From positions 1 to 64,000 of the forward strand of contig NZ_FOSQ01000013.1 in NCBI RefSeq assembly GCF_900114315.1: a DNA stretch of 64,000 bases, read 5' to 3'. Below the pieces are notes generated by a model. That model did no database searches. It was not told where the DNA came from and saw nothing but the letters and a program-made list of their open reading frames with translations. The translations under genes and the position numbers were made by a program. This document shows positions 10,796 to 58,788 of the stretch, piece after piece; the first letter of the stretch is position 1; every line of letters begins with the position of its first letter. This DNA is from Falsiroseomonas stagni DSM 19981. Its GTDB lineage: Bacteria > Pseudomonadota > Alphaproteobacteria > Acetobacterales > Acetobacteraceae.

Positions 10796-13700
10796 ATGCA
10801 GGTCACGTCCATCATCCTGCGGGCCGCCGGGCAGACCCTGACGGTCAATACCCTGACGCCCGAGCAGGTCGGCAACCTCAGCGATGCCTTCCTGGCGCGG
10901 ATCACGCCGCAGGCGATCGCCGCCCTCGGCAATGACCAGCTGGCAGCCCTGACGCCGGCGGCGATCGGCAAGATCCAGGCCCGCGCCTGGACCGGCCTCT
11001 CCTCGACCCAGGCATCGGCGCTGGGCACCGCGCAACTCGCTGCCTTCGGGACGGCGGCGATCGCCGCCCTGCAGCCGCAGACGGTCGGCGCCCTGGGCTC
11101 CACCCAACTCGCGGCCCTCGCCCCCTCCCAGGTCGCCGCCATCCCGCCCACCGGCATCGCCGCCCTCTCCCCGGACCGGATCGCCAGCCTCTCCGCCACC
11201 CAGGCGGGCGCCCTGGGTGCCCGGCAGGTCGCGGCGCTCCGGCCCGTGGCGGCCGCCGCGCTCAGTGCGGAGGCCCTCGGCGCGATCGGCACCGCGGCGC
11301 TGGCGGCCATGCAGACGGGCAGCATCGCGGCACTCGGCACCGACCAGATCGCGGCCCTGTCCACGGCGCAGCTGGGCAGCCTGACGCGCCAGCAGACCGC
11401 CGCGCTGAAGCCCGCCCAGGTGGCCGCGCTGGGCACGGCGCAGATCGCTTCCCTCTCCCCCACCGCCACGGCCGGGCTGAGGACCATCACCGTCGCCAGG
11501 CTCTCCGCGGATGCGCTGGGCGCGCTGTCCACCGCCCAGCTGGCGGCGATGGAGGGGCGGCAGCTGGCAGCGATCGCCGCCGATGATCTCGCGGATCTCT
11601 CGGGCGCCCAGCTCGCCGCCATCAGTGCCTCCGCCATGGCGCTGCTGACGGTGGGCCAGATGGCGGCCTTGGGCACGGAGGATCTGGACGCGCTGACCAC
11701 CGGGCAGATCAGGGCCCTCGGCCGCGCGCAGGTCGAGGCCTTCTCGGCGGCGGAGGTCGCCTCCCTGGAAACCGCGCAGCTCGTCGCCCTGTCCGCCGCG
11801 GGGATGGCGGGGCTGGAGGCGGAGGATTTCGCGGCCCTTTCCAGTCATCAGCTCCGCGCCTTCACCAGCACGCAGATGGCATCGCTCCGCGCCGCGCAGG
11901 TCGGCGCCCTGTCATCCACGGCCATCGCCGCGCTGCGACCGGACCAGGTGGCCGCGCTGTCGCCGACTGCGCTGGCCGCGCTTTCCTCCGATGCCTTCGC
12001 GGCGCTGGGGACGGAAACGCTTGCCGCGCTCCGGCTGCCGCAGATCCGCGCGCTGGGATCGACGCAGATGGCGGCCCTCGGCTCCGCCAGCCTGGCCGCG
12101 CTGAGCGCCAGCCAGGTGGCGATGCTGGGTTCCGCCGCGCTGGCGGGCCTGTCGACCACGGCGGTGCGGGGCCTGACCGTCGATGCGCTGGATGGGCTGT
12201 CCGCCGGCGCGCTGGGTGGAATGCCGCCCGCGACGCTGGCGGCGCTGTCCACCACGCAGGTGGCGGGGCTGTTGCCGCGGCAGCTGGCGGGCCTCGGCTC
12301 CGCCCAGGTGGCGGCGCTGGCCAGCACGGCCATCGCGGCGCTGACCACGACCCAGGTCGCGGCCCTCTCCTCCACCGGCATCGCGGGACTGTCGGCCGAT
12401 GCGGCCGCGGCGCTGTCCACCATGGGCCTGGCGGCGCTGGGGCGGCCGCAGATCGCCGCCCTGTCCAGCACCGCCTTCGCCGCGCTGACCACGACGCAGA
12501 TCGCCACGCTGACGACGACCCAGATCGGCGGCCTGACCGCCACCCAGGGCGCGGCGCTGACGACCGAGGCCCTGGCCGCGCTGGGCACGGCGGGCCTGGC
12601 CGCCCTGCCGCCCAGCGCCCTCTCCGGCCTGCTGCCGACAAGGCTGGCGAGCCTGTCCACCGAACGCCTGGCATCGCTCTCGACCACGCAGATCGCCGGC
12701 CTGACGGCCTCCCAGGTCGAGGCGCTGGATTCCGCCCGAATCGGCGCGCTGACGACGACGCAGCTCGGCGCCCTCACCCGCGTGCAGGCCACGGGGCTGA
12801 CCTCCACCGTGCTGGCCGGCTTCTCCACCGGGCAATGGGCGGCGCTGTCCAGCAAGGCGGTCGCCGGCCTGTCATCGGGGGCGATTGCCGCGCTGGACCC
12901 GGGGGAGGTCGCCGCCCTGTCCTCCGCCGCCATCGGCGCGCTGCGCCCGGCCACGCTCGCCGCGCTGGGCACGGCGCATCTGGCGGCGCTCAACACCACG
13001 CAGGTCAGTGCCCTCGATGCCGGGCAGGCCGGGGCGCTGGCGGCGGAGGACATGGCCGCCATCGGGACCGCCGGGCTTGTCGCGCTGTCGAGCAGCGCCA
13101 TCCGCGGCCTGTCCACGGCGGCGATCGGGGCGCTGGATGCCGGCTTCCTCTCCGCCCTGTCCACGGCGGGACTCGCGGCGCTGACCTCCAGCCAGGGTGC
13201 GGCGTTGCAGGCTGGCGCGGTGGTGGCGCAGGGCACGGCACGGCTGGCCGTGCTGGCGCCGGCCGTGATCGGCGGGCTGCAACCCGGCGCGGTGGCGGCA
13301 CTGGCCAGCACACAATTGCAGTCGCTGGGCACGAGCCAGGTGGCGGCGCTGGGCTCCGCCGCCCTGGCGGCACTGTCCTCCACGCAGGTGGCGGCGCTGT
13401 CCTCCGCGCAATTCGGGGCGCTGTCCTCGGCGGCGATCGGTGGGCTCGACCCGGACAGCGTCACCGCCCGGCTTGGCGCGATGACCACCACGCAGGTCGC
13501 GGGGCTTGTCTCGACGCAGGTGGCGGCGCTGGGCAGCTCGGCGGTCGCGGGCCTTGCCTCCACCGCCCTCGCCGCGCTGGGATCCAGCGCGATCGCGGGG
13601 CTGAGCACCGACTCGCTCGCGGCGCTCGGCAGCGGGATCACGGGGCTGACGAGCGCCCAGATGCGCGGCCTCGGCTCCGCGCAGATGGCCGCCTTCACGA

Positions 13701-14209
13701 CGGCGACGCTGGGCGCGCTATCCGCCGCGCAGATCGGCGCGCTGGGCTATTCGGCGACGCGGGCGCTGACGACGGAACAGATCGGCGTGCTCGACACCGC
13801 GCAGATCGCCGGGCTGGGCACGGTGCAGATGCTGGCGCTGACCACGGACCAGCTGGGCGCCTTCACCACCACCCAGCTGCGCGCCCTGACAACGACGCAG
13901 ATCGCCGCCCTGACCACGGCGCAGGTGGCGTCGCTGACCACGGAGGCACTGGCGGCGCTGGGGCCGGAGGATACGCCGGGGCTGACCACGCTCCAGCTCC
14001 AGGCGCTGGCGCCCACGGATATCGGCGTGCTGGGCGCGGAGGCCTTCGCCGCGATGCAGCCCGGGACGCTGGCCGGGCTGGATCATGGCCAGCTGGCGGC
14101 GGTGACGACGGCGCAGCTGGCCGCGATCCGCGCCCGCCAGGTTGCCGCCTTCACCCAGGCGCAGCTGCAGCAGTTCAGCGAACCGCAGCTGGCGGCCCTC
14201 TATGGCTAG
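10796..14209 (+). CDS. Giant octapeptide-repeat protein (about 140 units of 8 residues)
   Basis: A 1137-residue protein of unrecognised function. After about 20 N-terminal residues (MQVTSIILRAAGQTLTVNTL, not a clear signal peptide), essentially the whole chain is an 8-residue repeat of form [V/I/L]-A-A-L-[S/T/G]-[T/S]-[T/A]-[Q/E/A], for example VAALSTTQ or IAALTTTQ. The hydrophobic anchor keeps its phase to the C-terminus with only two visible breaks, a 12-residue unit (VTARLGAMTTTQ) and a 7-residue unit (LAALGSG). S/T-x-x-Q/E before a short hydrophobic segment resembles a helix N-cap box, so a compact solenoid or fibre is plausible but inferred. DNA-level units have diverged, arguing for an old, maintained array. 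The same repeat sits inside the DUF1217 protein of the flagellar cluster. The gene is monocistronic; its stop overlaps the convergent ridA-family stop. Confidence 0.85.
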   Translation: MQVTSIILRAAGQTLTVNTLTPEQVGNLSDAFLARITPQAIAALGNDQLAALTPAAIGKIQARAWTGLSSTQASALGTAQLAAFGTAAIAALQPQTVGALGSTQLAALAPSQVAAIPPTGIAALSPDRIASLSATQAGALGARQVAALRPVAAAALSAEALGAIGTAALAAMQTGSIAALGTDQIAALSTAQLGSLTRQQTAALKPAQVAALGTAQIASLSPTATAGLRTITVARLSADALGALSTAQLAAMEGRQLAAIAADDLADLSGAQLAAISASAMALLTVGQMAALGTEDLDALTTGQIRALGRAQVEAFSAAEVASLETAQLVALSAAGMAGLEAEDFAALSSHQLRAFTSTQMASLRAAQVGALSSTAIAALRPDQVAALSPTALAALSSDAFAALGTETLAALRLPQIRALGSTQMAALGSASLAALSASQVAMLGSAALAGLSTTAVRGLTVDALDGLSAGALGGMPPATLAALSTTQVAGLLPRQLAGLGSAQVAALASTAIAALTTTQVAALSSTGIAGLSADAAAALSTMGLAALGRPQIAALSSTAFAALTTTQIATLTTTQIGGLTATQGAALTTEALAALGTAGLAALPPSALSGLLPTRLASLSTERLASLSTTQIAGLTASQVEALDSARIGALTTTQLGALTRVQATGLTSTVLAGFSTGQWAALSSKAVAGLSSGAIAALDPGEVAALSSAAIGALRPATLAALGTAHLAALNTTQVSALDAGQAGALAAEDMAAIGTAGLVALSSSAIRGLSTAAIGALDAGFLSALSTAGLAALTSSQGAALQAGAVVAQGTARLAVLAPAVIGGLQPGAVAALASTQLQSLGTSQVAALGSAALAALSSTQVAALSSAQFGALSSAAIGGLDPDSVTARLGAMTTTQVAGLVSTQVAALGSSAVAGLASTALAALGSSAIAGLSTDSLAALGSGITGLTSAQMRGLGSAQMAAFTTATLGALSAAQIGALGYSATRALTTEQIGVLDTAQIAGLGTVQMLALTTDQLGAFTTTQLRALTTTQIAALTTAQVASLTTEALAALGPEDTPGLTTLQLQALAPTDIGVLGAEAFAAMQPGTLAGLDHGQLAAVTTAQLAAIRARQVAAFTQAQLQQFSEPQLAALYG

Positions 14210-47509: not shown

Positions 47510-48175
47510 TCAGCGCGCGGCGACGATGTCCCTGATCCGGTCATAGGCGACGTTCACCGCGCCCATCTTCAGCGTGACCGCGCCATCGACGCGCGTCGCG
47601 CCCGTCACCTCCGCGGTCACGGTGTGGCTGATGGCCGCGGTGCCGCCGTCACTGGCCTGGCCGGTGACGGTCAGGCGGTAGCTGCCGTCGTTGCGCAGCT
47701 GGCCGCGGGAATCCTTGCCGTCCCACTGCCAGGTGCTGGCGGCGGTGCCGAGCGGCACGGTCTGGGCGCGGACCAGGTTGCCGGTGGTGTCGCGGATCTC
47801 GATCCGCGCGGCGCGGGCCGTGCCGGCGGCGGGCAGGTTCACATCCGCGCGGCCGTTCTGCAGCGGCAGGCGGTCCGATTCCACCGTCACGCGCCGGCCG
47901 ACCAGCGCCGCCGCCTGGCCCAGCTGCCCGGCCTGCTGCAGCGACAGCAGCGATTGCAGCGTGGTGTTGGTGTTCATCTGCTGTTCGACGGTGGAGAACT
48001 GCACCAGCTGCTGCGTCAGCTGGTTGGCGTCCATCGGCTGGGTCGGGTCCTGGTTCTGCAGCTGCGTCGTCAGCAGCCGCAGGAAGGTGTTCAGGTCGGC
48101 CGACAGGCGGTTGCTGCTGGCGGTCGCCTGGGCGCCGGAGGTGGTGGAATTGGTGGCGCTGATGCTGCCGCTCAT
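47510..48175 (-). CDS. flgD: Flagellar hook assembly (cap) protein FlgD
   Basis: A 221-residue hook scaffold. The N-terminal FlgD signature is FLRLLTTQLQNQDPTQPMD, then QLVQFSTVEQQMNTN. The C-terminal FlgD Ig-like and tudor-like parts show WQWDGKDSRGQLRNDGSYRL. AAGGAGA lies 6 nt before the ATG. It follows fliK by 12 nt and shares its sigma-54 type promoter. Confidence 0.97.
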   Translation of the reverse strand: MSGSISATNSTTSGAQATASSNRLSADLNTFLRLLTTQLQNQDPTQPMDANQLTQQLVQFSTVEQQMNTNTTLQSLLSLQQAGQLGQAAALVGRRVTVESDRLPLQNGRADVNLPAAGTARAARIEIRDTTGNLVRAQTVPLGTAASTWQWDGKDSRGQLRNDGSYRLTVTGQASDGGTAAISHTVTAEVTGATRVDGAVTLKMGAVNVAYDRIRDIVAAR

Positions 48176-48187
48176 GGCGTTTCTCCT

Positions 48188-50254
48188 TCAGACGGCAAGG
48201 TCGAGGAGGCCGCGATGCGCGGCCCCCTGGCGATGGAGGGGCCCGTTCCCGGGCAGCGGGGGGACCGCATCGCGGGGCGCGGCGGCCCGGGGGGATGAGG
48301 CGCCCTGCGCCTGGCCCTGGGCCAGGGAATCCCGCTGCGCCTGGTCCCGCGCCGCGCCGCCATCGCCGAGGCTGAAGGACAGGCTTGTCCCACGCTCCCC
48401 GAGCCCGGCATCGGCCAGGGCGCGTTCCAGGTCGCGGGCGTCGCGCTGGAGCAGCGCCAGCGTATCGGCGCGCTCCGCCGTCACGCGCACCAGGGCCTCG
48501 CCCCGGCTGCGGTCGATCGAGACCTCCACCCGGCCGAGTTCCACCGGGTCCAGCGTCAGCGTCAGGCTCGATTCGCCGCCCAGCGCCAGGGCGACGGCGA
48601 AGGGCGCGACCTGGCGGGCCGGCCAGGCGACCTGCGTGGCGCTGGCGCGGGCCAGCATGGGCGGGGTGCGCGGCGCCGGATCGGTGGCGGCGGGGGGTTG
48701 TGGCGGCGTGGCCGCGGCATCGGCGCGCGGCTCGGCAGCCGGCGTCGCCGCGTGATGGCCGCTCGACGGCGGCTCGACGGCGATGGCCGGGACCGGGCGG
48801 CTGGCCTCGGCACCGGGGGTCGCGGCGGCCGGGGCCTCGGCCAGGGGGGCGGCGCCCTCGGGCAGGGGCGCCGGATCGGTGACCGGGGCGGCGTCCAGCT
48901 TCGTGGGGCTGCTGGCGGGACCGATGGCGGGGCCAAGGGCGACGGCGGGGGCAGCGTCGGCGCCGGTGGCGGTCACCGCCACGGCATTGCCGTGCCGCGC
49001 GGAGGCAGGGCCGGATGGAGGGGCGGCGGGCCGCGTTCCCGCGGCGGCCTGGCCGGCGACGACGACCACGCCGGCCATGGGCAGGGTGGCGGCGGCGGGA
49101 AGCGCGGCCTGGTCCGGGCTGGCCGCCTGGGATGGCGGGCCGGCGCCCGGGGCCGCGGCCGCGGTCGGGGCCGGGATCGCGCTCGGCGCCGGGGTCGCGC
49201 CAGCCGGCGCGGCGGCGGCGGATGGCGGGGCCGGTGCGACCCCCGTCACCCCAGGCGGCGCGACCGGGACGGCATCCGGCCCGTCCGGCGCCCCGGATGG
49301 CATCGCCGCCGCGACGGCCTCCGCCAGCCGCGCGGGGTCCGGCGCCGCATCGGGACCCGGGGGCACAGGCCCGGCCGCTGCCCCCTGGATCGCTGACGCC
49401 TGCGTTTCCGCCGGCTGGGTCTCCGCCGTCCGCGTCACGCCGCCCTGGGCCGCCGCCGGGCCGGCCATCGGGGCCGGTGCTGCGGCGGGCATCGATGATT
49501 CGGGCAGTGGCGCCGAAGCGGCCTCCGCGGGCCCCGCCGGCGGCGATGGGGCAAGGGGGGCCGCGGCCGCTCCGGCGGGCGCCGGCGCGGCACCATCGGC
49601 GAGGACAGGCGCCGGCGCCTGCAAGGATGGAAGGCTTGGCACGGCACCACCCGGCGGGGCAGCCGCGGCACCGGGGGCGCTGGCGCTCGTTGCCACCGAT
49701 GGCGGGGCGGCCGGCGGCGCGGGCGTGGTCGCGCCCAGGGCGGGCGGGGGCGAGGCGGGTTGCGCCAGCGGGGCGACCGGCAGCGCGGCCATCGCCTGCT
49801 CGATCGCCATTGGCGTCACCGGCAGGAGTCCGGCCGTGGCCGCGACGTCCGGCGCCGGGTCGGGGCCCAGGGAGAGATCGGGCGGAAGGCCAGGGGCAGG
49901 CTCGGCCACCAGGTCCGCGGCCGGGTCGGGGGTTGGCGGCATGGCACCCGCCGCGGCGTCCCCGATCCCCTCGGAGGCACTGGCCGGCATGTCCGGCGGC
50001 GGACCGGCGGGACTCTCAGCGCTGGTGGCGTCCGCGATCGTGCCGGTGATGCCCCCGGGGCTCGCAACCGGGCCTTCCCCGGGGGCGGCCGCCCTGTCGG
50101 GGACCTGGGCCTCGCCACCCGCCGCCACCGCGCCTTCCAGCACCTGGCCGAAACGGCCTCGCCCGGCCGGGCCGCCAGGGGGCGGGCCAGGAGGCGGGCC
50201 GGAGGACGCCGTGGCGCTGCCGGGCGGGCTGGCCAGGGGAATGGAAAGGTCCAT
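48188..50254 (-). CDS. fliK: Flagellar hook-length control protein FliK
   Basis: A 688-residue protein. Residues 1 to about 560 are Ala/Pro/Gly-rich and of low complexity, as expected for the molecular-ruler part. The C-terminal switch domain (about 565-660) carries LTLTLDPVELGRVEVSIDRS and LLQRDARDLERALADAGL, the Flg_hook signature. It sets hook length and switches export specificity to late substrates. The start at 50254 (MDLSIPLASPPG) is 33 nt downstream of a -24/-12 element; the open frame upstream to 52705 is antisense to flgE/flgK and not real. First gene of fliK-flgD. Confidence 0.93.
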   Translation of the reverse strand: MDLSIPLASPPGSATASSGPPPGPPPGGPAGRGRFGQVLEGAVAAGGEAQVPDRAAAPGEGPVASPGGITGTIADATSAESPAGPPPDMPASASEGIGDAAAGAMPPTPDPAADLVAEPAPGLPPDLSLGPDPAPDVAATAGLLPVTPMAIEQAMAALPVAPLAQPASPPPALGATTPAPPAAPPSVATSASAPGAAAAPPGGAVPSLPSLQAPAPVLADGAAPAPAGAAAAPLAPSPPAGPAEAASAPLPESSMPAAAPAPMAGPAAAQGGVTRTAETQPAETQASAIQGAAAGPVPPGPDAAPDPARLAEAVAAAMPSGAPDGPDAVPVAPPGVTGVAPAPPSAAAAPAGATPAPSAIPAPTAAAAPGAGPPSQAASPDQAALPAAATLPMAGVVVVAGQAAAGTRPAAPPSGPASARHGNAVAVTATGADAAPAVALGPAIGPASSPTKLDAAPVTDPAPLPEGAAPLAEAPAAATPGAEASRPVPAIAVEPPSSGHHAATPAAEPRADAAATPPQPPAATDPAPRTPPMLARASATQVAWPARQVAPFAVALALGGESSLTLTLDPVELGRVEVSIDRSRGEALVRVTAERADTLALLQRDARDLERALADAGLGERGTSLSFSLGDGGAARDQAQRDSLAQGQAQGASSPRAAAPRDAVPPLPGNGPLHRQGAAHRGLLDLAV

Positions 50255-50286
50255 GCGGGTGCCGGATGCGGTTCGGGGCCGCCAGC

Positions 50287-50301
50287 GCAACGGCCATGCC
50301 A
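50287..50301 (-). promoter_or_regulatory. Sigma-54 type promoter for fliK-flgD
   Basis: On the minus strand TGGCAT-N5-TTGC (50301 down to 50287) has exact -24/-12 spacing, 33 nt before the fliK start. Confidence 0.7.
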
Positions 50302-50340
50302 GGGCCGGGCCGCCGGCCGGCGGCAGAAGCCGGTCCCTGC

Positions 50341-50382
50341 CCGGCAGGATCTGCCGCCGGCCGGCAGGACTGGTCCTGCCGG
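50341..50382. promoter_or_regulatory. Palindromes between divergent sigma-54 promoters (activator-site candidates)
   Basis: CCGGCAGGAC, 2-nt loop, GTCCTGCCGG forms a perfect inverted repeat at 50361-50382; a related half-palindrome CGGCAGGATCTGCCG occupies 50342-50356. They share the GGCAG..CTGCC core and lie between the two -24/-12 elements, where an FlbD-type activator would bind. Confidence 0.6.
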
Positions 50383-50397
50383 CGGGGGGGCAGGCGC

Positions 50398-50412
50398 TGG
50401 CACGCGGGTTGC
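50398..50412 (+). promoter_or_regulatory. Sigma-54 type promoter for flgE operon
   Basis: TGGCAC-GCGGG-TTGC at 50398-50412 matches the -24/-12 consensus with 5-nt spacing, about 98 nt before flgE. Confidence 0.75.
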
Positions 50413-50509
50413 GCTGGCACGGCCAGGCGGGGTGCGAAGGCACCGCGACAACCGGGCCCGGGGGGCGGCGACGCCACCGGTCCCAAAACCCTTCTGGAGC
50501 ATCCGGACC

Positions 50510-51902: not shown

Positions 51903-53432
51903 ATGGGCCTCGACCTCGCCTTCACCGTCGCGCGCAGCGGCCTTCGGCTGCTGGAGCGCCAGATGGCGCGCGCGTCCCACGACATCGCCAATGCGGGCGT
52001 CGATGGCCATACGCGCAAGGTGCTGGAAGGCCGCACGCTGACGGCGGCGGGCACCGGCATCGGCGTGCGCAGCCAGCCGGTGGCGCGCGACGTGGACCTG
52101 GCGCTGATCGCGGCGCAGGACCGCGCGAAGGGCGATGTCGCGGCGGGCGCGCTGCGGGAGGACCTGCTGCGCGGGGTGGAGGCGGCGCACGGGTCGCCCG
52201 AGAATGGCGACAGCGTCGGCGGGCTGATGGGCGGGCTGCGCGACGCGATCGTGGCGCTGCGGGAAGCGCCGGCGGATGCGATCCGCCGCGGCACCGTCGT
52301 CACCGCGGCGGAAACGCTGGCCGGGCGGCTCAACAGCGTCTCCGCCGCGATCGGGGAGGCGCGGCAGCAGGCGCAGGATGCGATGCGGACGGAGGTGGAG
52401 GCGCTGAACGCCAACCTCTCCGCCATCGCCGGGCTGAACGACGCGATCCGGCGGGAGGCCGCGTCCGGCCGCAGCACGGCGGAGCTGGAGGACCAGCGGG
52501 ACCAGGTGATCGGGCAGGTGTCGGAAAGCCTCGACATCACGGTCATCCGCCGCGGCAACGGGGAGGTGACGCTGGTGGCGCGCGGCGGCATCACGCTGCC
52601 GCTGGAGGAAGGGGGCCGCCCCTTCACGCTCGCCGATGCGACGGTGGGGTCCGGTGCCTGGCACGGCAATGGCGGCACGCTGCCCGGCGTGATGCTGGAT
52701 GGCATCGACGTGACGCGCCGGCTCGCCGGCGGGCGGCTGGGCGCGGCGGCGGAATTGCGGGATGCGACACTGCCGCGGATGCAGGCGGAAGCGGATGTCG
52801 CCGCGTCTCAGCTGGCCTACCGGATGGAGGCGCAGGGCCTGCGGCTGTTCACCGACGATGCCGGCACGGTGCCCGACGTGACCCAGCCCTATGCCGGCAG
52901 CGCCATGGTGGGCTTCGCCGGCGCCATCCGGGTGAACCCGGACGTGGTGGCGGACCCCGCCCTGGTGCGGGACGGCACCCATGCGGTGGTGGCGGCGCCG
53001 GGCGGGCCCACGGCCTTCACGCCCAACACCGCCACGGGGCCGGCAGGCTTCGCGACGCTGCTGGACCGGGTGCTCGACTTCACCTTCGGCGCGGAAGTCG
53101 CCGCGGGCACGCCGCAGCCTGGCTTCGCCAGCGGCGGGCTCGGGCCGGATGGCACGCTCTCCTCACCCCTCAGCGGGCTGCGGACGCTGGAGGATTACGG
53201 CAGCGCGCTGGTCGCGGAACAGGCGGGCACCCGCGCGGCCGCGACCGCCACCAGGGAACGCGCGGAAGGGCTGCGGGATGTCCTGGCCTCCCGCCTCCAG
53301 CAGCGATCGGGGGTCGATGTGGACAAGGAGGTGGCGTCGATGGTGCAGTTGCAGACCGCCTACGGCGTGAATGCGCGCGTGATCTCCACCATCCAGGCGA
53401 TGTGGGACGCGCTGTTCGGCGCGGTGCGCTGA
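51903..53432 (+). CDS. flgK: Hook-associated protein 1 FlgK
   Basis: A 509-residue hook-filament junction protein. The N-terminus (LAFTVARSGLRLLERQMARASHDIANAGVDGHTRKVLEG) is the FlgK/FlgE-type D0 helix with the N-x-x-x-x-G-x-x-R-x element, and the C-terminal helix SGVDVDKEVASMVQLQTAYGVNARVISTIQAMWDAL is the matching D0 partner. The centre is beta-rich. Located between flgE and flgL; flgL begins 2 nt after its stop. Confidence 0.96.
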   Translation: MGLDLAFTVARSGLRLLERQMARASHDIANAGVDGHTRKVLEGRTLTAAGTGIGVRSQPVARDVDLALIAAQDRAKGDVAAGALREDLLRGVEAAHGSPENGDSVGGLMGGLRDAIVALREAPADAIRRGTVVTAAETLAGRLNSVSAAIGEARQQAQDAMRTEVEALNANLSAIAGLNDAIRREAASGRSTAELEDQRDQVIGQVSESLDITVIRRGNGEVTLVARGGITLPLEEGGRPFTLADATVGSGAWHGNGGTLPGVMLDGIDVTRRLAGGRLGAAAELRDATLPRMQAEADVAASQLAYRMEAQGLRLFTDDAGTVPDVTQPYAGSAMVGFAGAIRVNPDVVADPALVRDGTHAVVAAPGGPTAFTPNTATGPAGFATLLDRVLDFTFGAEVAAGTPQPGFASGGLGPDGTLSSPLSGLRTLEDYGSALVAEQAGTRAAATATRERAEGLRDVLASRLQQRSGVDVDKEVASMVQLQTAYGVNARVISTIQAMWDALFGAVR

Positions 53433-53434
53433 CC

Positions 53435-54475
53435 ATGTCGACGATCTCCATGATCGGCAGCATGGCGCTGGAACAGGCGTCGATGCGCCAGCGGGTGGAC
53501 GTGATCTCCCGCCAGGTCAGCACCGGGCAGCGGGGCGCGGTGCATGGGGACCTCGGCCTCGATGCGCGGCGGGCCATCGACCTCAAGGTCGAGATCAACA
53601 AGCGGGAGGTCTTCACCGCGGCGGCGGACCGCGCGCTGGCGCGGGCGGATGCGGCGCAGACCGTGCTCGGACGGCTGCACGACCTGGCGAGCAATGTGGC
53701 GGCGGAGGCGTTGCGCGCGCGCACCCTGGGCGCGGTCGCCGTCGAGTCCCTGGCCGACATCGCCCGCGCGGCGCTGGAGGAGGCGGCGGCGCTGCTGAAC
53801 ACGCGCCATGGCGGCGAATACCTGTTCGGCGGTTCGGATGTGACGAACCCGCCCGTGCCGGATGCCGCGAACATCACGACCGGGCCGATGGCGACCGCCA
53901 TCGCCGCATCGGTCGCGACGCTGGATGCCACCAATGCCGCGACGGTGCTGGCGGATACGCAGGCGATCGCCACCGATCCCGCCACCACCCCCTTCTCCGC
54001 CTTCCTGGAAGGCGACGGCACGACGGAAGCGCGCCGGGCGCTGCAGGTCTCGGACGGGGAACGGGTTTCGATCGGCGTCTTCGCCAACCGCGACAGCGCG
54101 GATGAGGTCACGGCCTCCTGGGGTCGCGAATTGCTGCGCGGGCTGGCGACGCTCGCTTCCGTCAGCCAGGCTCAGTTCGACACCGGGGAGGGCTGGCAGG
54201 AGCTGCTGGAGGGCACGACCGGGATGCTGAACGGCGCGACCGGCGGGCTGGCGGCGGAACAGGGCAAGCTCGGCGCCGCCTCCGCCCGCATCGATGCGAC
54301 GCGGGAGCGGCATGCGGACATGCTGGTGGCGCTGCGCACGCAGCTCGGCGACGTGGCGGAGGTGGACCTGGCGCAGGCCTCCGCGGAGCTGGCGCAGGTG
54401 AGGGAGCGGCTCGAAGCCTCCTACACCGTGACGACGATGGTCTCCCGCCTCTCGCTCGTGTCGATGCTGGGGTAG
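53435..54475 (+). CDS. flgL: Hook-associated protein 3 FlgL
   Basis: A 346-residue flagellin-fold junction protein. The N-terminal helix (RQRVDVISRQVSTGQRG, RAIDLKVEINKREVF) and the C-terminal coiled coil ending LEASYTVTTMVSRLSLVSMLG pair as D0/D1. HGGEYLFGGSD is the FlgL-typical G-x-x-L-F-G-G segment. Follows flgK by 2 nt, so the three hook genes form one unit. Confidence 0.94.
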   Translation: MSTISMIGSMALEQASMRQRVDVISRQVSTGQRGAVHGDLGLDARRAIDLKVEINKREVFTAAADRALARADAAQTVLGRLHDLASNVAAEALRARTLGAVAVESLADIARAALEEAAALLNTRHGGEYLFGGSDVTNPPVPDAANITTGPMATAIAASVATLDATNAATVLADTQAIATDPATTPFSAFLEGDGTTEARRALQVSDGERVSIGVFANRDSADEVTASWGRELLRGLATLASVSQAQFDTGEGWQELLEGTTGMLNGATGGLAAEQGKLGAASARIDATRERHADMLVALRTQLGDVAEVDLAQASAELAQVRERLEASYTVTTMVSRLSLVSMLG

Positions 54476-54680
54476 CGGTGGCGTGGCAGGGTTCCGGAAG
54501 GGGATGATGGCATGAGGGATGACGGGATGGATCGGGGGCGCCGCCTTCAACCCTGGTTAAGCCGAATGGGTGATGATGCGTCTGCGACGTGCGTCCCCGG
54601 TACCAGTGCCGGGGCGCGCGGCGCGCCCTCGAAGGATCGAGCACGCGGCGCAGGCTGTGTGGTGGCGAAAGATTCGCGTT

Positions 54681-54698
54681 GGCCGGCGTTCGCCGGCC
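54681..54698. promoter_or_regulatory. Strong hairpin in the flgL-flbT gap
   Basis: GGCCGGCG-TT-CGCCGGCC is a perfect 8-bp stem; GCGAA-AGA-TTCGC lies just before it (54664-54676). The 282-bp gap also holds CCCCGG/CCGGGG at about 54597-54616. These may end the flgEKL transcript or shape the flbT leader. I found no good -24/-12 element here. Confidence 0.45.
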
Positions 54699-54757
54699 CC
54701 CCGGCATGGCGGGCCGCTACCCCCCCGCCGCCATGCCGCCAGGCTTGGGAGAGTGGC

Positions 54758-55234
54758 ATGTCCACGTTGGTGCTCGAGATGCGTGCCGGTGAGTTGATGG
54801 TGGTGAACGGCGCGTCGCTGCGTTTCCGCAGCCGGACCCGGGTGGAGCTTGTTGCCAAGGCGCGTTTCCTGTTCGGCAAGCAGGTGATGGCCCCGGAGGC
54901 CGCGAACACCCCGGCGCGCCGCATCTATTTCGCCCTGCAATGCGCCTATGTCGGTCCCGAGGAGGATCGCGAGGCCGCCATGGCCGACGCGCACCGGCTG
55001 GTGGCGGAGTTCCAGGAAGCGACGACGTCATCGATGGCGCGGCAGCTGCTGGAGCGCGCGCTGGCGATGGCGGAGCAGGATGAATGGTACCAGGCGCTGC
55101 GGCTGGTGCGGCACGTGATGCGGCATGAGGCGACGGTGCTGGGGCTGGATGTGCAGACCGGGCTGCCGATGCCGATGGTGGGCGTCGCCGCGGCGGCGGC
55201 AGCGGCGACGGCGATGCGGCCGCACGCCGAATAG
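54758..55234 (+). CDS. flbT: Flagellin translation regulator FlbT
   Basis: A 158-residue protein of the FlbT family, which in Caulobacter binds the flagellin mRNA leader and promotes its decay until the hook is complete. MSTLVLEMRAGELMVVNGASLRFRSRTRVEL and KARFLFGKQVMAPEAANTPARRIYFALQCAYVG are characteristic. GGGAGAG lies a few bases before ATG 54758; the longer frame upstream crosses hairpins and is dismissed. It precedes flagellin and flaF, its usual partners. Confidence 0.94.
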   Translation: MSTLVLEMRAGELMVVNGASLRFRSRTRVELVAKARFLFGKQVMAPEAANTPARRIYFALQCAYVGPEEDREAAMADAHRLVAEFQEATTSSMARQLLERALAMAEQDEWYQALRLVRHVMRHEATVLGLDVQTGLPMPMVGVAAAAAAATAMRPHAE

Positions 55235-55290: not shown

Positions 55291-55427
55291 TATGGAGGAA
55301 GGCCCGCGGATGGCGGGTCTCTGGCCGGTAGCGGCGGCGTCGTAGCGACGCGGTGCGCCCGGTCCCGTGAGGAGGGAGGCAAAAGGCCGGCCTGACCACG
55401 GAACGCCTGATCAAGGAGATGGGGACA

Positions 55428-56618
55428 ATGTCCTCCGTCAACACCAATGCCGCCGCCATGGCGGCGATCCGCTCGCTGAACAATATCGGCAAGGACATGG
55501 GCAAGACCCAGCAGCGGATCGAGACGAATCTGCGCATCAGCAAGGCGGATGACGATCCTGCCGTGTTCGCGATCTCGCAGAACATGCGCGCCGACCTGAA
55601 CGGCATGACGGCGGTGAAGGACAGCCTGAAGTTCGGCAAGTCCGCGCTGACGGTGGCGCGTGACGCGGCGACGCAGATCTCCGACGAGCTGGGCCGGCTG
55701 AAGCAGACGATGACGCAGGGCCAGCAGCAGGGCCTGGACGCGGACCAGATCAACAACCAGATCACCAACGCGCTGCAGAACATCGACGCCTTCGCGCGTT
55801 CCGCCACCTTCAACGGCGTGAACCTGCTGGTGAACGGCCTGACGGTGGATGGCGTCACCAACACCTCCGTCGACATCGTGCGCGACATCCAGGGTTCCGT
55901 CACCTCCGTGCAGGGCACGGACAGCACGGCCGCGGGGCTGGACCTGACGGGCCTGTCCGTCACCTCCGCCGCGCGCACCGTGACCTTCGACGACACGCTG
56001 GCGCCGGCGAATGGCGAGGTGCTGACCGTGACGGTGCAGCGTGACCTCGACAATGATCCGGCGACGGCGCTGGAAGACGTGGACCTGGTGTTCGAATTCA
56101 GCGACGGCACCGCCGCGCTGGGCACAACGCCGGACCCGAATGTGCGTGTCTATGACGTGCAGTTCGAGGCGACGGACAGCCCGCTGACGCGCATCACCGC
56201 GCTGATCACCCGCATGAAGGAAGCCGGGCTGGATGCCGGCCTGAACAATGAGGGCGAGCTCTACATCCGCGGCAATTCGGAGGATGTCACCACCGACATC
56301 ACCGGCGCCACGGTGGAAGCGGCGCCGGCGGCGGGCACGGGCCAGGATGAGGCGATCGCGCTGGTGGAAGGTGCCATCGACCTGATGGGCACGCGGCTTG
56401 CGAACCTCGGCGCCAATATCCGCCAGGTGGACGGCCTGACGACCTTCACCACCCAGCTGAACGACTCGATCAAGGAAGGCCTCGGCGCCCTGGTCGATGC
56501 GGATCTGGCGGAGGAAAGCGCGCGACTGACCAGCCTGCAGACCAAGCAGCAGCTGGCGACGCAGTCGCTCTCCATCGCCAACGAACAGAGCCAGTCGCTG
56601 CTCAGCCTGTTCCGATGA
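55428..56618 (+). CDS. fliC: Flagellin
   Basis: A 396-residue filament subunit. AAGGAG at 55413-55418 abuts the ATG at 55419 but is 9 nt before the ATG at 55428, so the start MSSVNTNAAAMAAIRSLNNI is chosen. D0/D1 N-terminus includes RISKADDDPAVFAISQNMRAD; the C-terminal half is ARLTSLQTKQQLATQSLSIANEQSQSLLSLFR. The middle (about residues 140-300) is a variable beta-rich domain rich in Thr, Asp and Val, exposed on the filament. Only one flagellin gene is seen here. Confidence 0.97.
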   Translation: MSSVNTNAAAMAAIRSLNNIGKDMGKTQQRIETNLRISKADDDPAVFAISQNMRADLNGMTAVKDSLKFGKSALTVARDAATQISDELGRLKQTMTQGQQQGLDADQINNQITNALQNIDAFARSATFNGVNLLVNGLTVDGVTNTSVDIVRDIQGSVTSVQGTDSTAAGLDLTGLSVTSAARTVTFDDTLAPANGEVLTVTVQRDLDNDPATALEDVDLVFEFSDGTAALGTTPDPNVRVYDVQFEATDSPLTRITALITRMKEAGLDAGLNNEGELYIRGNSEDVTTDITGATVEAAPAAGTGQDEAIALVEGAIDLMGTRLANLGANIRQVDGLTTFTTQLNDSIKEGLGALVDADLAEESARLTSLQTKQQLATQSLSIANEQSQSLLSLFR

Positions 56619-56697: not shown

Positions 56698-57102
56698 ATG
56701 AGCGCAGCGCGCTACGCCGCCACCCAGAACGCCCACGCGCATCCGCGCGACATCGAATTGCGCGCCTTCCGCTACGTCAACGGCCTGATGGCCGCAGCCA
56801 CCGACACGAAATCCCGCGCCGTGGCGCTGGAGAAGGTGCACCGCATGTGGTCCATCTTCATCAGCGATCTGGGGTCGCCCGGCAACAGGCTGCCGCCGGC
56901 GCTGCGCGGGCAGCTCATCTCCCTCGGCCTCTGGGCGCAGCGGGAGACCGACCTGCGCCTGGAGGATGGCGGCAGCCTGGAGCCGCTGATGGCCCTGCAT
57001 CGCGACATGATCGAGGCGCTGGAAGCCCAGCGCGGCCTGCCCGCAAGGCCGGCAGCGACGCCCACGGCGGCAACGCTGCATTTCGTCGCGGGATCGGCCT
57101 GA
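56698..57102 (+). CDS. flaF: Flagellin biosynthesis regulator FlaF
   Basis: A 134-residue protein of the FlaF family, needed for flagellin synthesis or secretion in alphaproteobacteria and antagonistic to FlbT. Typical blocks are RDIELRAFRYVNGLMAAA, ALEKVHRMWSIFISDL and LRGQLISLGLWAQRETD. GGAGGG lies just before the ATG. The next gene begins 1 nt after its stop. Confidence 0.93.
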   Translation: MSAARYAATQNAHAHPRDIELRAFRYVNGLMAAATDTKSRAVALEKVHRMWSIFISDLGSPGNRLPPALRGQLISLGLWAQRETDLRLEDGGSLEPLMALHRDMIEALEAQRGLPARPAATPTAATLHFVAGSA

Positions 57103-57103
57103 C

Positions 57104-58408
57104 ATGCTGCCCGGCCTTGGCGCGCTGACGGCCTTCGCCGTTGCGCAGCGCGAGGGCTCGAGGCTGGAAGCCCGCTTTGCCGACCGCCGCGACAACAAGG
57201 CGGCGATGGACCGCTTCCGGGAGGCGGCGACGCAGCACCAGGATGTCGAATCCCTGCTGCGGGACCGCCGTACGCTGCAGGTGGTGCTGGAAGCCTTCCA
57301 GCTGGAAGGCGAGATCGACAAGCGCGGCATCCTGCGGAAGATCCTGACCGAGGATCCGACCGCGGAAGGCAGCCTGGCCAACAAGCTGACCGACCGGCGC
57401 TGGCGCGAACTGGCCAGCGCCTTCGCCACCCGCCAGGCCAGCGCGCTGACCACGACGCAGGTGGCCGCGCTGACGACGACGCAGGTCGCGGCGCTGACCG
57501 CGAAGCAGGTGGCGGGGCTGAGCACCGAACAGGTGCGGGCCCTGTCCAGCACGCAGGTCGCCGCGCTGTCCACCACGCAGCTTCGCGCGCTGGGCAGCGC
57601 CGCGATCGCCGTGCTGGACCTGCCGGATGTGCGGGCGCTGGGATCGACGCAGGTCGCGGCGCTGCGGCCTGCCCAGGTGGCGGCGCTGACGCCGCTGCAG
57701 GCGGCCGTGATCGATCCCGGGGAGATCCGGCAATGGGGTGCCGCGCAGATCCGCGCGCTGTCCTCGACGCAGATCGCCGGGCTCGGCACCACCCAGGTCG
57801 CGGCGCTGCGCACCGACCAGCTGGCGGCGATGAGCTTCGACCAGTCCCGCGCGCTGACGACGCGCCAGCTGGCCGCCCTCGGCAGCACGCAGATCGCCTC
57901 GCTGAGCCGGGCCACGCGCCTCGGCGATGAGGCGGCGGAGGCCGCGGCGGCGGCGGAAGCGCGGGCGGCATCGCCCTTCGCCGCCGATCCCGGGCTGCTC
58001 GACCGCATCACGGCCGGGGCCATCACAAACCGCTACGAGAAGGCGATGGGCGAGGGCAATCCCGGGCTGCGGGAGGCACTGTACTTCCTGCGCAACGCCG
58101 CCAAGGTCACGACCATCGTGGGCCTGATGGAGGACAAGGCGTTGACCGCGGTGGTGCGCGGCGCGCTCGGCCTGCCGGAGAGCTTCGGCGTGCTGGATTT
58201 CGACCAGCAGAGGACGCTGCTGACGCAGCGGCTCGACATCACGAAGCTTCAGGATACGAGGGAGGTGGCGAAGCTGGCGCAGCGCTACCTGGCGCTGTCC
58301 GCCACCCCCACCGCCGGCGGGAATTCGGCGGTGATGGGATTGTTCGGCGGCAGCAGCGCCAGCGCCATCGCCAACCTGTCCACGCGGCGGATATCCTTTA
58401 CCGCTTGA
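57104..58408 (+). CDS. DUF1217 flagellar-cluster protein split by about 20 octapeptide repeats
   Basis: A 434-residue protein. Residues 1-110 (ESLLRDRRTLQVVLEAFQLEG, IDKRGILRKILTED, KLTDRRWRELASAFAT) match the N-terminal half of DUF1217, and residues from about 285 to the end (ITNRYEKAMGEGNPGLREAL, LTAVVRGALGLPESFGVLDF) match its C-terminal half. Between them residues 112-268 are an uninterrupted 8-residue repeat; hydrophobic anchors fall at 120, 128, 136 and onward to 264 without a phase break. The unit (V-A-A-L-T-T-T-Q) is the same as in the giant protein at 10796. DUF1217 proteins occur in alphaproteobacterial flagellar loci, but their function is unknown. Starts 1 nt after flaF. An export or filament-associated role is inference. 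Confidence 0.85.
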   Translation: MLPGLGALTAFAVAQREGSRLEARFADRRDNKAAMDRFREAATQHQDVESLLRDRRTLQVVLEAFQLEGEIDKRGILRKILTEDPTAEGSLANKLTDRRWRELASAFATRQASALTTTQVAALTTTQVAALTAKQVAGLSTEQVRALSSTQVAALSTTQLRALGSAAIAVLDLPDVRALGSTQVAALRPAQVAALTPLQAAVIDPGEIRQWGAAQIRALSSTQIAGLGTTQVAALRTDQLAAMSFDQSRALTTRQLAALGSTQIASLSRATRLGDEAAEAAAAAEARAASPFAADPGLLDRITAGAITNRYEKAMGEGNPGLREALYFLRNAAKVTTIVGLMEDKALTAVVRGALGLPESFGVLDFDQQRTLLTQRLDITKLQDTREVAKLAQRYLALSATPTAGGNSAVMGLFGGSSASAIANLSTRRISFTA

Positions 58409-58503: not shown

Positions 58504-58788
58504 TCAGCTGGAGACGTCGACGCTCGGGGCGGGTTCCGGGCGCGGCTGGTCGCGATAGGCTTCCAGTTCCTTGGGCGTCGGGATCGACAGCGACAATTCC
58601 CCCACCGAGTCACGGAACTCGATCACCACCAGGCTCAGCGCCGGATCGATGCGGAGGCGCGGGTTGGGCATGGCAGGGGCGACATCCGCCGGCGCCCGCT
58701 CGGCCGTCGACGGCGTCTGGCCGCGCGGCGGCAGGATCGGCGTCGCGGGGGAGGCGGGGCTGGCGGGCTGGAGCATGGTCGTGCTCAT
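58504..58788 (-). CDS. FlaG-like small flagellar protein
   Basis: A 94-residue protein. The first 40 residues are Pro/Ala/Thr-rich and disordered; residues of about 43-80 (RLRIDPALSLVVIEFRDSVGEL then SIPTPKELEAYR) follow the FlaG pattern of a short beta pair ending in a Glu-Ile/Leu-x-x-I-P-x-x-E-L motif. The match is by pattern only and the gene could be an unrelated flagellar-cluster hypothetical. Convergent to the DUF1217 gene across a hairpin array. Confidence 0.55.
   Translation of the reverse strand: MSTTMLQPASPASPATPILPPRGQTPSTAERAPADVAPAMPNPRLRIDPALSLVVIEFRDSVGELSLSIPTPKELEAYRDQPRPEPAPSVDVSS

Follow-up and report, generated by a model that had tools for sequence, protein, structure and literature searches.

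We found that a gene in the flagellar cluster of Falsiroseomonas stagni DSM 19981 encodes a DUF1217 protein whose two halves are held apart by an array of ALTTAQ octapeptides. The insertion is real and conserved, and its host is a gene for flagellar assembly. DUF1217 and ALTTAQ are both catalogued families, and their combination by insertion is new. Within the window, i.e. the whole stretch of 64,000 nucleotides analyzed (contig NZ_FOSQ01000013.1, positions 1 to 64,000), the Pfam model for DUF1217 (PF06748) matched the gene product in two stretches (E = 4.4e-39, 134.5 bits against a cut-off of 22.9), and the ALTTAQ_rpt model (PF20080) matched between the DUF1217 halves in seven stretches (E = 2.4e-34, 117.1 bits against a cut-off of 26.4). 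The preliminary description of this DNA had placed an unbroken run of octapeptides inside the domain from residue 112 to 268; both the insertion and its unbroken character were borne out, while its start was corrected to residue 113, giving a gap-free array of 156 aa. The linker that follows is the place where array-bearing inserts differ in length, and the tail past residue 399 was modeled by AlphaFold2 with low confidence. Orthologues without the array in other Falsiroseomonas genomes align continuously, which indicates a true insertion rather than a reading artefact, and a chance repeat or frame artefact was ruled out by the Pfam scores, the conservation of the array and these array-less orthologues. 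The same genome holds a second, array-less DUF1217 gene on another contig, where it adjoins flagellin, FlaF and FlbT.

Table 1 Genes and protein parts of the window, with positions counted from its first letter.
Feature	Position	Strand	Basis
DUF1217 gene with ALTTAQ array, 434 aa	57104..58408	+	ORF; PF06748 and PF20080 matches
N-terminal DUF1217 half, residues 1-112, helical	57104..57439	+	Alignment; AlphaFold2 model; solved relative 2o8s
ALTTAQ array, residues 113-268, 19.5 octads	57440..57907	+	Gap-free alignment; AlphaFold2; PDB relative 9zem
Linker, residues 269-290, predicted helix	57908..57973	+	Alignment; AlphaFold2
C-terminal DUF1217 half, residues 291-399	57974..58300	+	Pfam; alignment; AlphaFold2
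flaF, directly upstream of DUF1217	56698..57102	+	PF07309, E 1.1e-19
Flagellin	55419..56618	+	PF00669/PF00700
ORF holding flbT, domain at residues 86-210	54512..55234	+	PF07378, E 4.4e-29
flgL-like hook-associated protein	53402..54475	+	PF00700/PF00669; TIGR02550 below cut-off
flgK	51903..53432	+	TIGR02492 above cut-off
fliK (part of longer ORF), hook-length control, same cluster	48188..50500	-	PF02120, E 4.5e-13
flgD, hook cap, same cluster	47510..48175	-	PF03963, E 2.8e-21
Small conserved neighbour, possibly FlaG-like	58504..58788	-	Matched next to DUF1217 in named relatives
Giant ALTTAQ protein, 1137 aa, outside flagellar locus	10796..14209	+	PF20080, 39 stretches, E 1.9e-150

The window's protein was aligned with those of 21 named loci from Falsiroseomonas, Roseomonas and allies (22 proteins, 11 with the array). 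The array splits DUF1217 in 11 of the 15 Falsiroseomonas genomes examined, the window's own included, and the same syntenic gene encodes a continuous DUF1217 in the remaining four (G004, G006, G008 and G011), such that the array is not required for the gene's retention. Anchor-to-anchor distances were 200–208 aa with the array against 30–41 aa without it. All 11 array rows had an array of exactly 156 residues with 0 gaps, which rules out a length-variable module, and the array itself showed none of the variation in insertion length among relatives that the preliminary description had proposed to look for. Relative to the window's protein, array identity spanned 0.90–0.32 and flank identity 0.90–0.61 (mean pairwise identity 0.50 for the array and 0.72 for the flanks). 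The octad register was kept although array identity falls to 32%: in comparisons of three distant rows with the eight remaining ones, mean octad identity was 0.377 at the same index versus 0.304 at other indices, and in 138 of 456 cases no other index scored higher than the same one, with ~24 expected without ties. The array behaves as a retained domain of fixed size.

A single supported clade of 15 rows comprised all array genes together with four array-less ones. The best tree had two changes, and trees with one change accounted for 0% of bootstrap trees for the first tree and 2% of 200 for the second, in which the Sneathiella row was left out; a single array origin was not rejected (p-AU = 0.147). 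We infer from the shared site, length and register that one old insertion, followed by losses, is favored. The earlier suggestion that the module moves between proteins finds no backing in an array fixed at 156 aa within one supported clade. A ruler or tape measure could be read into a length without any variation across 11 of 11 rows, yet this is highly improbable, given that array-less orthologues sit in the same operon within the genus and that fliK, the usual hook ruler, is present in the same cluster.

Structure prediction described the insertion as a helical solenoid in an otherwise recognizable DUF1217 fold. In the AlphaFold2 model of the array-bearing protein (whole-model pLDDT 84.4, pTM 0.65), the array formed a succession of short helices joined by brief turns, each octad being mostly one short helix plus turn, with pLDDT of 85–95 per ten-residue block. 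Foldseek matched this model best to 2o8s (E = 2.4e-5), which is AGR_C_984 of Agrobacterium, a solved member of DUF1217; both halves of the window's protein match this family, to which it adds the 156-aa helical array and the linker in the loop that joins the halves. For an array-less orthologue, the model also matched 2o8s (E = 6.6e-10, TM 0.76/0.83) and nothing else at E ≤ 0.001, with no axial, cap or FliD fold listed, and an axial-protein fold for the DUF1217 core was rejected on these grounds. In this orthologue model the insertion point is the loop between helices 98–106 and 118–140.

After 2o8s, the array-bearing model matched mesothelin chains weakly (Foldseek E of 0.056 and up, TM 0.21/0.33), and the array matched the mesothelin profile below the Pfam cut-off (E = 0.0094), a likeness in both fold and profile that stops short of demonstrated kinship. 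The mesothelin superfamily is known from animals. Its repeat units are longer than the ALTTAQ octads, and the suggestion that mesothelins bind glycans provides a lead for the array (both from the accessible part of PMC2628672). By sequence, array residues 127–235 match PDB entry 9zem, ‘HeliScrew4’ (E = 1.2e-13), a stand-alone chain of 120 aa known here by molecule name alone, and the giant ALTTAQ protein matches the same entry (E = 1.9e-15); a literature search found no paper naming ALTTAQ or HeliScrew. The array is predicted to fold as a mesothelin-like helical screw of ~20 short helices.

The loop that receives the array also holds inserts elsewhere in the family. We chose 20 wider-family loci for long open frames among the matches listed, a selection that speaks to the existence of inserts and not to their frequency, and in 15 of these the stretch aligned with the core model's N-terminal half stopped at positions 108–113, the site of the array. 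Roseomonas-type inserts were ~115–125 aa long, with one of ~217 aa that apparently holds two copies (L111), and no known domain scored above the Pfam cut-off in the ~120-aa type among seven loci scanned. Longer inserts measured ~320–343 aa in seven loci and ~485 aa in L126. FlgE_D2, a hook-protein domain, was found above the Pfam cut-off in the inserts of four loci (L121–L124), and no family reached the cut-off in those of L117, L118, L119 and L126. Three loci adjoin a gene for a type III export ATPase (L121, L123 and L125), L123 adjoining flhA as well, and no flagellar neighbor was seen next to L119 or L126. The FlgE_D2-bearing proteins, from other Acetobacteraceae, have their insert at the core position of the array, but there it is the outer domain of a hook protein, whereas the window's protein carries an octapeptide solenoid. 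The loop has the look of a site where attached domains can be exchanged.

Other arrangements of DUF1217 were also seen. One gene (L125:2364-4514, minus strand) repeats the N-terminal half several times before a single C-terminal half, and at L058 (G048:C1:60000-70500) two neighboring genes encode proteins of ~930–970 aa in which DUF1217 lies close to the N-terminus and the ~700 aa behind it match no Pfam family above the cut-off. Long frames with DUF1217 occur in other genomes of the class, too.

The flagellar setting proposed from the letters was confirmed by family models for flgK, a flgL-like gene, flbT, flagellin, flaF, fliK and flgD, with the true start of flbT probably lying further inside its ORF. 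A 1-nt gap separates the flaF stop from the DUF1217 start (TGA-C-ATG), and across 11 such junctions the two genes overlapped in two, stood one base apart in eight and two bases apart in one. Flagellin followed by flaF lies directly upstream of DUF1217 in 20 of the 21 named loci, and the order flgL-flbT-flagellin-flaF-DUF1217, with or without the array, recurs in 16 of 21; the exceptions are four Elioraea loci without a matched flgL or flbT and Sneathiella, which has a different order. The DUF1217 copy of Roseomonas marmotae is found in a cluster ordered flagellin-flaF-flbT-DUF1217-fliI. The position claimed for the gene, between flaF and a FlaG-like gene, held on the flaF side (PF07309) but is unproven on the other, where the small neighbor had no Pfam family at E ≤ 1 and a two-sequence BLAST against Azospirillum FlaG gave a weak match (27% over 48 aa, E = 0.017). 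Among 193 sampled genomes of the class, DUF1217 was present in 23, all 23 with FlaF, which itself was present in 73 (p = 1.6e-11, kinship not corrected); 50 of the 73 FlaF genomes had no DUF1217 match. DUF1217 is a flagellar family; the flagellar gene neighborhood is usual for its members but does not enter the family's definition.

The family is very probably linked to a mutant phenotype. According to the accessible part of PMC12363192, CP1 of Phaeobacter inhibens is essential for motility, the mutant being immotile and complementable; the mutant exoproteome retains FliC and most other flagellar proteins. No flagella are seen on the mutant by electron microscopy, and some cells bear an undefined polar structure. 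The same text places fliC-flaF-flbT-CP1 on a 124-kb plasmid of Cereibacter sphaeroides. On C. sphaeroides plasmid pA (NZ_CP030273.1, 124,316 bp), which also holds the rhamnose genes mentioned there, Pfam models identified, on a single strand, flagellin, flaF and flbT followed by DUF1217. Since this order equals that of the paper, CP1 is very probably DUF1217, an identification based on gene order and not on the sequence of CP1. If so, the description of CP1 as exclusive to Rhodobacterales fla1 clusters (PMC12363192, accessible part) would hold only for close orthologues. The mutant phenotype resembles failed filament building from exported flagellin, as in a Salmonella flgKL mutant that is unable to assemble filaments and has 62% of its FliC in the supernatant (portion available of PMC12221982).

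The explanation that we favor, with moderate confidence, is that the DUF1217 protein acts late in filament assembly and has a single site for domain insertion, which here carries a mesothelin-like screw of fixed size. The two helical halves would form one fold, with the loop between two helices as the insertion site, and the protein would be needed late, after flagellin export and before the filament stands, as the CP1 mutant suggests. In one Falsiroseomonas–Roseomonas clade, the site would carry the fixed-size solenoid of ~20 short helices, and in other lineages a FlgE_D2 hook-type domain or other domains. We infer that the array serves the assembly factor as a stable accessory domain for binding; given the rest, it may face outward at the filament or hook junction, by analogy with the outer domains of axial proteins, which is a guess that we put forward tentatively. 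Several observations weigh against the late-assembly explanation. CP1 was not detected in the P. inhibens exoproteome in the accessible part of PMC12363192, which argues against an abundant outer part, and the fold search on the core gave 2o8s and no axial or cap protein. That paper's text restricts CP1 to Rhodobacterales fla1 clusters while DUF1217 is wider, and the available portion of an A. fabrum motility screen names four genes without assigned function, none described as DUF1217 (PMC9812332), which speaks against DUF1217 being essential everywhere. In addition, no DUF1217 match was found in 50 of the 73 sampled FlaF genomes, and the gene is kept without the array in four genomes of the genus. 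Elsewhere in the literature, in the parts available to us, DUF1217 is listed between MotA and FlgF in Brucella with no function given (PMC7410920), is called similar to FlgF (PMC9430466) and is not mentioned in PMC12826043.

An action inside the cell is possible, if somewhat doubtful: DUF1217 would be a cytoplasmic chaperone or regulator working with FlaF and FlbT, and the array would scaffold flagellin or another partner. The tight coupling of the gene to flaF and flbT is consistent with this, as are the absence of CP1 from the exoproteome and a core without fold match to axial proteins, and the authors of PMC12363192, in its accessible part, discuss CP1 and CP3 as possible chaperones or as factors against premature assembly. 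However, a cytoplasmic factor would be an odd carrier for the FlgE_D2 domain that this loop holds elsewhere.

We regard it as unlikely that DUF1217 is a filament cap or junction protein standing in for FliD where FliD is missing. In its favor, the CP1 mutant exports FliC with no flagella seen, as the Salmonella flgKL mutant likewise sheds FliC; FliD is described as absent in P. inhibens (PMC12363192, accessible part); and no FliD_C match was found in the 15 Falsiroseomonas genomes, nor was the FliD family among the Pfam matches in the window. Yet FliD was rare in sampled FlaF genomes irrespective of DUF1217 (2/23 with and 2/50 without), 48 of 73 FlaF genomes had neither protein, and the two were not anti-correlated within FlaF genomes (p = 0.59) and only weakly so over all 193 (p = 0.11), results by which a clean replacement of FliD was rejected. 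The fold search also gave no FliD-like match, and CP1 was not detected outside the cell (PMC12363192, in the text available). Similarly low in probability is the wider proposition that DUF1217 would be the extracellular cap or junction protein of many FliD-less alphaproteobacterial flagella, with the loop as a socket in which the ALTTAQ screw, FlgE_D2 and further inserts would serve as interchangeable outer domains, comparable to the variable ones of flagellin.

The late-assembly explanation bears on how flagella without FliD assemble their filaments. If CP1 is DUF1217, a phenotype in which flagellin is exported and flagella are not seen becomes tied to a Pfam family without an assigned function, for which a solved structure is available and which is widespread in Alphaproteobacteria. 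An insertion site with interchangeable domains is a direct handle on the export and contacts of the protein. The main interest lies in this site, which elsewhere holds a hook-protein domain, and in the link to a mutant phenotype, above the repeat itself, although the array also represents a natural octapeptide helical screw at one length, from a repeat that varies widely in giant proteins.

That repeat, as stated in the preliminary description, is common to the DUF1217 gene and the giant gene of the window, both of which match PF20080. Within DUF1217 the array has a fixed 156 aa and orthologous octads inside a folded domain, whereas the giants vary from 1137 aa in the window to open frames of 2254–2729 aa in relatives. 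Two kinds of giants occur in the genus. The window's kind (a 1137-aa ORF, with open frames of 1191 aa in L136 and 1222 aa in L137) has housekeeping neighbors, with a GTP cyclohydrolase gene adjoining and a NUDIX gene near, and L136 is the same in this respect. The second kind has complete open frames of 2254–2729 aa adjoining GT41 glycosyltransferase genes, and in the window's genome (G000) it is interrupted by contig ends; ALTTAQ frames running off C22:1-960 and C24:1-612 (L141 and L142) are probably one further giant gene split by assembly.

Giants were present in 8 of 11 array-bearing Falsiroseomonas genomes versus none of four array-less ones (Fisher 0.026, kinship not corrected), which agrees with the co-occurrence that had been raised earlier, but three array genomes (G002, G009 and G014) had the repeat only inside DUF1217 with no giant seen; some of the genomes are drafts (G014 has ~1040 contigs), so that gaps in the assembly can account for a giant that is not seen. 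Four other genomes in the class sample contained ALTTAQ. Three of these had no DUF1217, which partly bears out the objection named in the preliminary description, that the repeat gene occurs freely in non-flagellated genomes lacking the DUF1217 form; but each of the three has FliD or FlaF, and none is thereby shown to be non-flagellated. The repeat was also present in Caulobacter, with no DUF1217 match. The giants are not obligatorily linked to the DUF1217 array.

A mobile octapeptide system that links the giant and the DUF1217 gene to the flagellum, as a sheath or surface layer, is very unlikely. It would account for a single repeat family, for giants occurring only with the array form in the genus and for some giants near flagellar genes (Rhodovastum, C. 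sphaeroides on the same plasmid, and G557), but not for most other ALTTAQ genomes of the class, or Caulobacter, lacking DUF1217, for array genomes without a giant (3/11), or for the fixed register and length in DUF1217. The related claim that the repeat ties both proteins to the flagellum was not upheld, with the window's giant lying among housekeeping genes and those three genomes having none. On plasmid RHOApa of Rhodovastum atsumiense (L150), a giant is two small genes away from fliI, flgC, fliE, fliQ and flhA, and in G557 (C1:4045863-4066962) a giant with a 3232-aa open frame is located ~12 kb from a DUF1217 gene whose 509-aa open frame has an unsplit DUF1217 match.

Large giants adjoin GT41-type (O-GlcNAc transferase-like) genes, sometimes a pair, both in relatives and in the window's own genome (L134, L135, L138, L139, L140, L141, L143 and L145) and further in L131 (C. 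sphaeroides plasmid pA), L146, L147, L148, L150 and L154. GT41 was not found around the giants of L136, L137, L149, L151, L152-L153, L155, L156 or the window, nor in L142 and L144, where only a giant's far end is included. This adjacency suggests that the Thr/Ser-rich octads of the giants concerned are glycosylated. Type I secretion genes lie near the giants of the C. sphaeroides plasmid and two Pseudomonas plasmids (L131, L147 and L148), and these giants may be exported that way. Separately, positions 590-955 of the window comprise a 63-bp tandem repeat in 5.8 copies.
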